Shown one piece after another: positions 47,716 to 50,817 of a stretch of 64,000 nt of DNA; positions within the stretch are counted from its first letter, which is position 1, and every line of letters begins with the position of its first letter. The notes under the pieces were generated by a model, which was not told where the DNA came from, searched no databases, and saw only the letters and a list, made by a program, of their open reading frames with translations. Origin of the DNA: Nitrospina sp. LS_NOB (GTDB lineage Bacteria > Nitrospinota > Nitrospinia > Nitrospinales > VA-1); contig LFLA01000018.1 of the NCBI GenBank assembly GCA_001542995.1, positions 99,501-163,500 of the forward strand, in the 5' to 3' direction. Made by a program: the position numbers and the translations under genes.

Positions 47716-48504
47716 ATGACCTATCAATGCAAGCTGGATATTTTTGAAGGCCCTTTAGACCTACTTCTCCATCTTATTAAAGAACAAAAGATGGATATCT
47801 GTGATATCCCCATCGCTCAAATTACTCGTCAGTATATGGAGTATCTGGAAATGCTGCAGGAGTTGAACCTTGAATTGGTCGGGGAGTATTTAGTCATGGC
47901 TGCTGAGTTGACGCGGATCAAGTCAAAAATTTTGCTACCTGCTCCTGAAACCGATGAGGAATTTGATGCGGGAGCCGGGGAAGACCCGCGCGCGGAACTG
48001 ATGCGCAGGCTGCGGGAGTACCAGCGCTATCGGGATGCGGCGTTTGAACTGAGATTGAAGGAGCACGACCGGCAACAGGTTTTTGCGCGGGGTGGACAGA
48101 TTGAAATTGAGGAAAGCTCTGAAGGGAAGGAATTGGTGGATGCATCGGTTTTCGATTTACTCAAGGCCTACCAGAAAATCCTGGATACCAAATCGTTTGA
48201 AAAGGATTACGAAATTGAAATCACCGAAATGTCGGTCACCGATCGGATTCAGCACATTATGGAAATTCTTAATGCTTCAGAAAGCGTTACGTTTGAATCT
48301 CTGTTTACAGTTTTAAACAGCAAGCAGGAGGTCGTCGTGACGTTTCTTGCTATTCTGGAATTAATGCGCCTTAAATTATTGCGCGTTCAACAGACCCGCC
48401 ACTTTGAAACCATTCGAATTTACAAGTCCGCAGACCAGCAGACTCAAGATGCCATTCTGGAAGAATACCAGCAATCTATGGATTCCGAATCCTCCGAATC
48501 CTGA
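47716..48504 (+). CDS. scpA: Segregation and condensation protein A
   Basis: ScpA is the kleisin of the SMC-ScpAB condensin. The 262-residue protein has FEGPLDLLLHLIKEQKMDI at the N terminus (SMC-binding), a central acidic linker, and a C-terminal winged helix (VTFLAILELMRLKLLRVQQ). The usual partner scpB does not follow; instead the region decays into gene fragments and an integron cassette, so scpB has been moved or lost from here. Confidence 0.95.
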   Translation: MTYQCKLDIFEGPLDLLLHLIKEQKMDICDIPIAQITRQYMEYLEMLQELNLELVGEYLVMAAELTRIKSKILLPAPETDEEFDAGAGEDPRAELMRRLREYQRYRDAAFELRLKEHDRQQVFARGGQIEIEESSEGKELVDASVFDLLKAYQKILDTKSFEKDYEIEITEMSVTDRIQHIMEILNASESVTFESLFTVLNSKQEVVVTFLAILELMRLKLLRVQQTRHFETIRIYKSADQQTQDAILEEYQQSMDSESSES

Positions 48505-48529
48505 GCCCTGTTGTTATCTTAGAAAAGGC

Positions 48530-48775
48530 TTATTTTGTGCTGAGATTAAAAACACCATCCCAATCTTCCGGAGGGGCTGCTCGGATAAATTTTTCGCATC
48601 GCTCCAAATAGACTTTTGAGGGACCATCTTCTGGTTGGGATTTTAATGCGTTTTCAAAATAGCTTTTGGCTTCAGCCCACTCCCGATTCTGATAACTTGT
48701 AAACCCTGGTTATAAAAAGGTAACACCTTTTTAATAGATTCTTTGATGTCTCCCTTGATTTTTAGTTTTAGTAAA
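48530..48775 (-). pseudogene. C-terminal remnant of a TPR/adenylate-cyclase-type protein
   Basis: Read on the minus strand, the region gives KIKGDIKESIKKVLPFYNQG, then after a one-base frameshift FTSYQNREWAEAKSYFENAL, then GPSKVYLERCEKF and PPEDWDGVFNLSTK before a stop at 48530. The ending YLERCxxF...PPxDWDGV is characteristic of the C-terminal TPR of class III adenylate cyclases. Only about 80 codons remain. The frameshift and the absence of the upstream gene make it a remnant. Confidence 0.72.
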
Positions 48776-48891
48776 AATCTCTATGGGCGTTAGCCCTGCT
48801 TTTAGCAATGGAGCTTTTGCCATTTATTATTTATGACAGTTTTTGTATGCGTAGCATTGATTACAAGAGTGCTGACTTTTGTGCTAATACC

Positions 48892-48948
48892 ACCTAACAA
48901 ATCATTCCAGCAGACTGCTTACGCGTCGGCTGAATTCAAGCGTTAGGC
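48892..48948 (+). other. Integron attC recombination site (complete)
   Basis: The 57-base site has R'' ACCTAAC (48892-48898) and R' GTTAGGC (48942-48948), fitting RYYYAAC and GTTRRRY. Between them TTCCAGC and GGCTGAA are imperfectly complementary with an unpaired base, as expected of the L boxes, so it folds as an attC hairpin. A cassette gene starts 13 bases after R'. Confidence 0.78.
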
Positions 48949-48961
48949 AAAGAAGAAAACA

Positions 48962-49729
48962 ATGGCAGTTACAAATTTTTTATTCCCTGACTTGTCTAAA
49001 AGCGTTGAGAGGGAACTGGCAATAATTCTGGGGGAAATAACACATCATATTCATCCAGATATTGTCAGTTTTATAACAAAGGAAAATTTAAGTTATCAAG
49101 AGCGGTTTAAATCTATATGTCATAAATCCTGTGATATAAAATCATTCTTTTATTCTGGCTCCGATTGCGTGTTTCCAGGATTTAGGAGGCCAATTAATAA
49201 AGAAAAATCAAAAGGATGGAAAAATAATGTCTATGAAAAAGATGGAACAATATTAAATGACAATACTTTTCCAAGGCATATTTGGGCGTATCTATCAATG
49301 AATAAAGCTTATTCAGGTGGCGCTACAGGAATGTGGTCACCTAGTGGCCTCGATAGATTTGAATTAGCCCATATTTTTAGTCACAAACAAGATGAAAGAG
49401 GGCTTGAAAAAACAGCTTTTACTGAGTTTAATAACAACCAAGAGCCGTATGGTTTATTTACCTCTGCATCTAATGTTGTCCTGATCCCCAAAGGCTTTAC
49501 AAAACCAACAGATCATATGGATTCAATAAAACTCTGTTTTTATAAAAGGCATTTAGAATTATATGGCAATAATTTAATTGGTCTCAGTGGATTCAAGGGC
49601 AATGTTCCTTCATGGTATGCGGATATAAAATGGCTTGACCCAGTGCTACGAAGCGATTGGAAAACAAAAGTACAAAGCCTTCTACAATATAGAGAGAAGT
49701 ATTTAAAAAATAAATATGCAAATAGTTAA
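48962..49729 (+). CDS. Integron-cassette gene, A+T-rich, possible HNH-type nuclease
   Basis: The 255-residue protein is A+T-rich in codon use compared with its neighbours, which suggests recent acquisition. FELAHIFSHKQDERG (about 138-152) and, 25 residues later, ASNVVLIPKGFTKPTDH have the H...N spacing of HNH-like endonucleases of defence systems, but this is a tentative reading. No signal peptide or membrane segment is seen. It begins 13 bases after a complete attC and its stop lies five bases before the start of a second, truncated attC, which is the classical gene-cassette arrangement. No integrase is in the window. Confidence 0.7.
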   Translation: MAVTNFLFPDLSKSVERELAIILGEITHHIHPDIVSFITKENLSYQERFKSICHKSCDIKSFFYSGSDCVFPGFRRPINKEKSKGWKNNVYEKDGTILNDNTFPRHIWAYLSMNKAYSGGATGMWSPSGLDRFELAHIFSHKQDERGLEKTAFTEFNNNQEPYGLFTSASNVVLIPKGFTKPTDHMDSIKLCFYKRHLELYGNNLIGLSGFKGNVPSWYADIKWLDPVLRSDWKTKVQSLLQYREKYLKNKYANS

Positions 49730-49734
49730 TAATC

Positions 49735-49755
49735 GCCTAACAAATAGCTCCAGTA
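49735..49755 (+). other. Truncated attC at the 3' end of the cassette
   Basis: R'' GCCTAAC (49735-49741) is followed by AAATAGCTCCAG, closely matching AAATCATTCCAG at the same place in the complete site. The R' half is missing; the sequence passes into a cyclic-nucleotide-binding-domain fragment. The site cannot be recombined in the normal way. Confidence 0.65.
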
Positions 49756-50070
49756 TTTACCGAGAAAGATCACTTATTCAAAGATGGGGGGAGGGCAGTT
49801 CCATGTACGTCATACTTTCCGGAGAACTGATCGTCTCTAAAAATAGGGTAGAGATTATACGCAGAAAAGAAGGTGATTATCTGGGAGAGATGTCACTGAT
49901 TGGCTCCAAACCCCGTTCTGCTGCCGTCATGTCCGCATTGCCCACTCAGTTGCTCTGGAAATAACACAGGAACAATTTCATGCCCAATTGGTTTCCCTCA
50001 TGTTTGAATAGGCCCAGACATACTATCTGCAACTATTTAGGGCTTTTCGTCTGGCCTTGGGTGGGATATA
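49756..50070 (+). pseudogene. Cyclic-nucleotide-binding-domain gene fragment
   Basis: Starting right after the truncated attC, the frame encodes IYRERSLIQRWGEGSSMYVILSGELIVSK and GDYLGEMSLIGSKPRSAAVMS, the phosphate-binding cassette of a CRP-type domain. After ALPTQLL a one-base shift is needed to continue with EITQEQFHAQLVSLMFE, followed by a stop (50008). The N terminus is cut off by the cassette. It is thus truncated and frameshifted. It may once have preceded cysE. Confidence 0.75.
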
Positions 50071-50103: not shown

Positions 50104-50817
50104 ATGTTCCGTCAAATTACAGAAGATGTCCGGGTGGCTATGGAAAAAGATCCTGCCGCGAGGAACTTTATCGAAGTATTGCTTTTGTATCCCGGTGTGC
50201 ATGCCCTGATCACCTACCGCCTGACTCATGCATTATGGGGTATGGGGTTCAATTTTATGGCCAGAGCCTTGTCCCAGTTTTCCCGGTGGATTACCGGTAT
50301 AGAAATTCATCCGGCCGCGAAAATTGGCCATCGATTTTTTATCGATCATGGCATGGGCGTGGTGATTGGGGAAACGTCGGAGGTGGGGGATAACGTATTC
50401 ATTTACCACGGGGTGACATTGGGAGGCCTTGCGACCAAGAAGGCCAAACGCCATCCCACTATCGCTGAAAATGTTGTCATTGGTGCCGGGGCCCAGGTTT
50501 TAGGCCCGGTCCACGTTGGGCGCAACACAAAAATTGGTTCCGGATCGGTGGTTCTTCAGGATGTCCCCGAGTATTCCACTGTTATCGGAGTTCCTGGAAG
50601 GGTGGTTTTTTCTGGCATCTCTTCGGATATGGAAGATGATGATGGTCTGGAATCTTTCCCGGATCCTGTGGCGCGGGCCATCGAATGCATGCTCGACAGG
50701 TTGCCGCAAATGGAAAAAGAAATCCGCCACCTAAAAGAAATTCTGAAGAAAGAAGGGATAGACCCTCAGGTTGCCACAGATTCTGCCACTATAAAACGGC
50801 GCCAGTCCGAATCCTGA
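50104..50817 (+). CDS. cysE: Serine O-acetyltransferase
   Basis: It acetylates serine for cysteine synthesis. The 237-residue protein has the N-terminal helices (ARNFIEVLLLYPGVHALITYRL), and a left-handed beta-helix with the catalytic region IEIHPAAKIGHRFFIDHGMGVVIGETSEVGD and GVTLGG, followed by GAGAQVLGP. The C-terminal Ile used for CysK binding is not obvious. It lies 91 bases upstream of a cysteine desulfurase, on the same strand. Confidence 0.95.
   Translation: MFRQITEDVRVAMEKDPAARNFIEVLLLYPGVHALITYRLTHALWGMGFNFMARALSQFSRWITGIEIHPAAKIGHRFFIDHGMGVVIGETSEVGDNVFIYHGVTLGGLATKKAKRHPTIAENVVIGAGAQVLGPVHVGRNTKIGSGSVVLQDVPEYSTVIGVPGRVVFSGISSDMEDDDGLESFPDPVARAIECMLDRLPQMEKEIRHLKEILKKEGIDPQVATDSATIKRRQSES

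Follow-up and report, generated by a model that had tools for sequence, protein, structure and literature searches.

A probable integron cassette-array remnant in the chromosome of Nitrospina sp. LS_NOB

Layout of the locus and the attC site

The draft genome of Nitrospina sp. LS_NOB comprises 2.65 Mb in 26 contigs and is 98.8% complete. We analysed a window of 64,000 nt (G000:C1:99501-163500; "the window" refers to this whole stretch, and positions are counted from its first letter unless a contig is named). The site of interest lies mid-way along a 228-kb contig, where the following features were recognized between intact scpA and cysE-type genes:

47716..48504, plus strand: scpA, intact, the left neighbour (PF02616, E 5e-38; last 300 nt with 92.7% DNA identity to genome G043)
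48510..48797, minus strand: what is left of a CHASE2 adenylate cyclase gene, its decayed 3' end (indel-bearing homology to G043, G035, G040, and G041; 82.9% to G043)
48798..48891, plus strand: putative 3' remnant of an upstream cassette, 94 nt, with a frame (...LAMELLPFIIYDSFCMRSIDYKSADFCANTT) that stops at the TAA in the R'' box
48892..48948, plus strand: attC1, a complete attC of 57 nt (46.2 bits with covariance model R2; predicted fold; 80-85% identity to plasmid attCs)
48949..48961, plus strand: cassette leader AAAGAAGAAAACA, 13 nt, resembling the leader of the pHRM2a cassette
48962..49729, plus strand: cassette gene, 255 aa, of an undescribed family with relatives in cassettes L087 and L089
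49735..49753, plus strand: 5' part of a second attC (R'' and the start of L''), truncated, with a 15/18 match to attC1 and no hairpin
49773..49990, plus strand: stub of a cNMP-binding/LuxR regulator gene (PF00027; 81.0% to G043)
50104..50817, plus strand: cysE-type serine acetyltransferase gene, intact, the right neighbour (hexapeptide and SATase_N matches; in 16/16 genus genomes)

The R'' (ACCTAAC) and R' (GTTAGGC) boxes of attC1, as well as its L'' and L' boxes, are predicted to pair as an imperfect hairpin, which was better than 195/200 shuffles on the bottom strand and 197/200 on the top strand. The original prediction had called a complete 57-base attC here, and an independent covariance model (R2) bore this out with 46.2 bits (E = 1.8e-9, whole-genome search), far above noise; with strict filters, attC1 was the sole R2 match in the genome at E ≤ 0.05. 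R2 was trained on five attCs, one each from the relatives G073 and G002 and from a Methylophaga MAG and two from plasmid R46, with the LS_NOB genome excluded. Because MAFFT misaligned the loops of full-length attCs, the attC arms were joined for the models. Heuristic attC scans were too permissive outside strong sites, and Rfam gave no match anywhere in the window.

At the DNA level, attC1 was 80-85% identical (81-85.5% over most of the attC) to attC regions by plasmid genes, including blaDIM-1 and aacA34, and in pHRM2a the attC is followed by a near-identical leader (CAAAGAGGAAAACAATGGCA against CAAAGAAGAAAACAATGGCA). An attC of the congener G030 (L131, G030:C21:9939-9995) matched attC1 at 51/57 positions, loop included. 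Judged from its sequence and predicted fold, attC1 is a genuine attC and a candidate site for recombination.

The attC of G030 belongs to a lone cassette in a different place, with a 240-aa endonuclease/exonuclease/phosphatase-type gene 5' of the attC. The exact 16-base attC core AACAAATCATTCCAGC also occurred in 34 contigs of a viral collection (L162-L195), in a good part of which the model detected attCs, some as arrays; these cassettes may be carried by phages, or the contigs may be bacterial ones misplaced among viral sequences.

The cassette gene and its relatives

The 255-aa gene starts with an ATG at 48962, 13 nt past attC1, and its stop codon ends at 49729. It has a G+C content of 33.9% vs 45.9% for the window, with only 0.16% of 768-bp windows as low, and is absent from 15/15 other genus genomes. 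Among 77 genomes of the phylum, one distant relative was detected (43%), in a genome of the same family (G027), with no attC at that homologue. A scan of ∼85,000 species genomes yielded 13 relatives, the nearest being L087 from a Methylophaga MAG (73% identity), followed by L089 from Pokkaliibacter plantistimulans (60%). The L087 gene starts shortly 3' of an R' box (CCGTTAGGC), its stop codon falls within the R'' box of the next attC, GCCTAAC, and the L089 gene likewise terminates in GCCTAAC of an attC; relatives of the gene are thus found between attC sites elsewhere. No attC was seen directly at the gene in the ∼40% relatives (Bacteroidales, Planctomycetes, and an archaeal MAG), and the cassette protein was not found in the viral contigs or plasmids searched. 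The relatives in L090 (3992-5077, Bacteroidetes) and L093 (3971-5080, alphaproteobacterial) have extra C-terminal stretches of ∼100 residues.

Given its low G+C content, its absence from congeners, and the position of its closest relatives in attC-bounded cassettes, the 255-aa gene is a foreign cassette gene, in agreement with the original prediction of a foreign A+T-rich gene 13 bases after an attC; it was not inherited together with its flanks in relatives. The gene is not followed by a complete attC of its own, as that site is truncated after 19 nt, and the complete attC1 belongs to the preceding cassette rather than to this gene. As it stands, the 255-aa gene is a cassette remnant.

The cassette protein had no family in Pfam, NCBIfam, PADLOC, or PHROGs, and no member of its family had a Pfam match. 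An alignment of 14 sequences contained 37 invariant columns, AHxFxHK, NxxLxPK, and D184 among them, and the structure model built from these sequences had a pLDDT of 80.5. Fold searches with this model returned nothing significant; ranks 2-4 of the PDB search were BrxU and SspE, which we take to be HNH nucleases, at non-significant E values of 1.5-2.4. Given the invariant AHxFxHK ... NxxLxPK ... D pattern together with these non-significant fold matches, the modelled protein could be an HNH-like nuclease, a tentative assignment that we hold with somewhat less than even confidence. Our best guess, and a weak one, is that the product is an HNH-like nuclease that depends on metal and serves an accessory or defence-type function.

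The intact frame and conserved residues suggest that the gene may have been functional recently. A promoter search gave one weak match (48802-48830), with matches rarer than in shuffles, and no terminator-like site was found between scpA and the cassette gene. The gene would be readable only via scpA read-through transcripts or a fortuitous promoter.

Integrase search and attC loci elsewhere in the genome

In the whole 98.8%-complete genome, no protein scored over the TIGR02249 cut-off for integron integrases, which extends the integrase absence originally predicted for the window. The best matches were only Xer-type recombinases, below the cut-off, and were rejected as candidates. Integron integrases were likewise found in 0/16 genus genomes. 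Within Nitrospinota, they exceeded the curated cut-off in 7/77 genomes (G024, G063, G002, G003, G069, G070, and G073), two of which belong to the same family as LS_NOB (G024, at G024:C2:768082-768936, and G063, at G063:C139). Since the integrase is missing, the cassette would now be immobile.

The original prediction had also treated the cassette as alone, a claim that did not hold: G030 carries another lone cassette, and a second covariance model (R1) identified three further attC loci scattered over the LS_NOB genome:

C17:27581-27666: attC, 37 bits with R1 (sequence in the R1 training set)
C7:49985-50060 (L119 1501-1576): attC, 33.6 bits with R1, E 2e-5
C4:134-215: attC, 24.3 bits with R1, E 0.01

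The C7 and C4 sites, which are outside the training sets of both models, reached ∼20 bits with R2 too. The four attCs of the genome are dissimilar to one another. A further R1 match on C24 (E = 4) was dismissed as chance.

On C17 (∼25.6-28.6 kb; L009 1400-2900, minus strand), an integrase-free cassette cluster opens with a stretch resembling a degenerate attC, followed by three small ORFs and an attC; it continues with a HicA/HicB-like pair, the stop of which falls in the next R'' box, and then an apparently truncated attC. On C4 (L120 220-1110, minus strand), a 296-aa HNH-endonuclease-like cassette gene lies directly before the contig-end attC, and the end of the preceding attC (GTTAGGTG) lies just 5' of the start codon of this gene. 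C7 has a lone attC after the end of a cassette-like ORF (...GRWGVEQSASDVMKERFSDQNV, with the stop in R''); at this place, the sister genomes instead carry a pentapeptide-repeat-like gene, which was lost from LS_NOB.

Truncated ends, origin, and comparison with known elements

Sister genomes have a normal gene block and no attC at this site. In G040, the interval between scpA and cysE holds four intact genes, encoding a cyclase (759 aa), a FecR-domain-like protein (803 aa), a TPR/porin-like protein (511 aa), and a cNMP/LuxR regulator (225 aa), with names that were read off the sequences except for the cNMP domain; in G043, the cyclase and cNMP frames are intact as far as the contigs reach. About 6.9 kb found in G040 is missing from LS_NOB, where a ∼960-bp fragment occupies the gap between two decayed stubs. 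These comparisons confirmed the predicted flanks, a minus-strand cyclase tail and a truncated cNMP gene. On the other hand, scpB had been expected after scpA, whereas the genus has either cysE or the cyclase block there.

On the left, the cyclase stub can be matched to G043, the closest relative, up to somewhere in 48788-48797, with an uncertain right edge. The 94 nt that follow (48798-48891) had no homology to sister genomes and no identified relative, and the C-terminal peptide of this remnant had no plasmid match. Given that its frame stops in the TAA of R'', like those of L087 and L089, this A+T-rich piece is probably the 3' end of another cassette. On the right, the half attC starts within 6 nt of the cassette-gene stop codon and breaks off after CCTAACAAATAGCTCCAG; positions 49736-49753 fit the first 18 nt of the attC1 core at 15/18, a type of match expected 0.04 times by chance in the whole window, so the front half of a second attC stands as predicted. 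No hairpin was found when it was folded. Homology of the cNMP gene to six sister genomes starts at 49773-49783; this stub lost its 5' part at the junction and lacks a further ∼300 bp downstream.

From left to right, the fragment consists of the final 94 nt of the upstream cassette, the complete attC1, the cassette with the 255-aa gene, and 19 nt of the next attC. It is ∼960 bp of an array that had two or more cassettes and is cut short on either side, rather than a single cassette with a clean insertion. The original reading of cassette DNA outside any integron, with a foreign gene, was retained, while its single cassette inserted between two genes was replaced by this fragment, with ∼6.9 kb of ancestral genes lost.

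We consider it highly probable that the site is the remnant of an integron gene-cassette array, classified as a SALIN, in which a neighbouring cassette ends on the left and a truncated attC lies on the right; this reading draws on a single draft genome, and the site has just one complete attC. The fragment would have come from an externally acquired array, and illegitimate recombination or deletion would have given it its present form, either through array DNA joined into a gap or through later erosion of an inserted array from both sides. It is conceivable, although we lean against it, that integron-free Nitrospinaceae repeatedly take up foreign array fragments via such illegitimate, integrase-independent recombination, leaving scattered orphan cassettes and keeping intact genes, such as the new nuclease-like family.

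An alternative is an insertion outside an integron platform, at an attG-like site: an integron integrase would have placed a two-cassette unit at G^TT within the cyclase gene, and the right half of the second attC would have been deleted afterwards along with most of the block from cyclase to cNMP. Cyclase homology starts failing precisely at GGGCG^TTAGCC, TTAGCC is a typical cassette start, integrases are present in same-family genomes, and cassette insertion at attG has been reported (Loot et al., 2024, as cited in PMC12901181 and PMC12690207). However, allowing a one-base gap, G043 matches 8/9 bases past the supposed cut, which suggests that this is still cyclase DNA. GTTAGCC at 48788 was not established as a clean attG insertion. 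The first cassette would also be nearly geneless, and at the C7 attC locus a neighbouring gene was lost too. An attG insertion should show clean G^TT junctions and, on the right, a complete attC; here the right junction is truncated and not clean and the left is ambiguous, although a later deletion could hide such an insertion. We regard insertion at attG as unlikely.

We find it still less probable that a former resident integron of the lineage stood here and was lost save for one piece. While the several attC loci in the genome, the G030 attC identical at 51/57 positions, and the integrases in two same-family genomes would fit such a history, no genus genome (0/16) has an integrase, sister genomes have the ordinary gene block without attC at the site, and the four attCs of LS_NOB are dissimilar, whereas those of a resident array resemble one another. 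An assembly chimera or contamination could come to mind in a draft genome of 26 contigs with a gene not found in congeners, but the site lies mid-way along its 228-kb contig and both stubs bear indels. Relative to G043, the stubs (82.9% for the cyclase and 81.0% for the cNMP gene) are more diverged than the intact neighbours (92.7% for the end of scpA and 88.5% for cysE), indicating an old event and making an assembly chimera unlikely; the further ∼300 bp missing from the cNMP stub likewise points to an old truncation. We give this explanation hardly any credence.

SALIN and CALIN, a single attC and an attC cluster lacking an integron integrase, respectively, are IntegronFinder classes (PMC12690207) and established types of element (PMC12690207, PMC7923331). 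As the site has a single complete attC and lacks an integrase in its vicinity, it corresponds to a SALIN. One complete and one partial site fall short of the at least two attC sites of an integrase-free CALIN, and a genome with no integrase over the cut-off does not provide a complete integron, that is, intI and attI with an array. A search of the available literature for Nitrospina in connection with integrons and their cassettes returned passing mentions only, which is weak evidence of an unsampled group. Our results indicate that gene cassettes reach the chromosomes of a Nitrospinaceae lineage where no integrase was found. Moreover, sister genomes reveal the seat of this orphan cassette, with both sides truncated and ∼6.9 kb replaced and no clean insertion, and an uncharacterised protein family with members in several phyla joins the cassette repertoire. 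The general picture of CALIN and SALIN elements is unchanged.

Like known SALIN and CALIN elements, the site has an attC-bounded chromosomal gene without an adjacent integrase; it differs in that the fragment is truncated on both sides, replaces a lost gene block, lies in a genome with no integrase found anywhere, and belongs to the phylum Nitrospinota. The attCs of blaDIM-1 and aacA34 share 81-85.5% DNA identity with attC1 over most of the attC, but they accompany resistance-gene cassettes on plasmids, and the gene here is unrelated. The L087 and L089 cassettes have a homologous gene (73% and 60%) directly before an attC, with the stop codon in the R'' box, whereas their attCs are of other types with long loops and their hosts are Gammaproteobacteria. 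The lone cassette of G030, finally, resembles the site in its attC (51/57), but differs in both its gene, of the endonuclease/exonuclease/phosphatase type, and its place.
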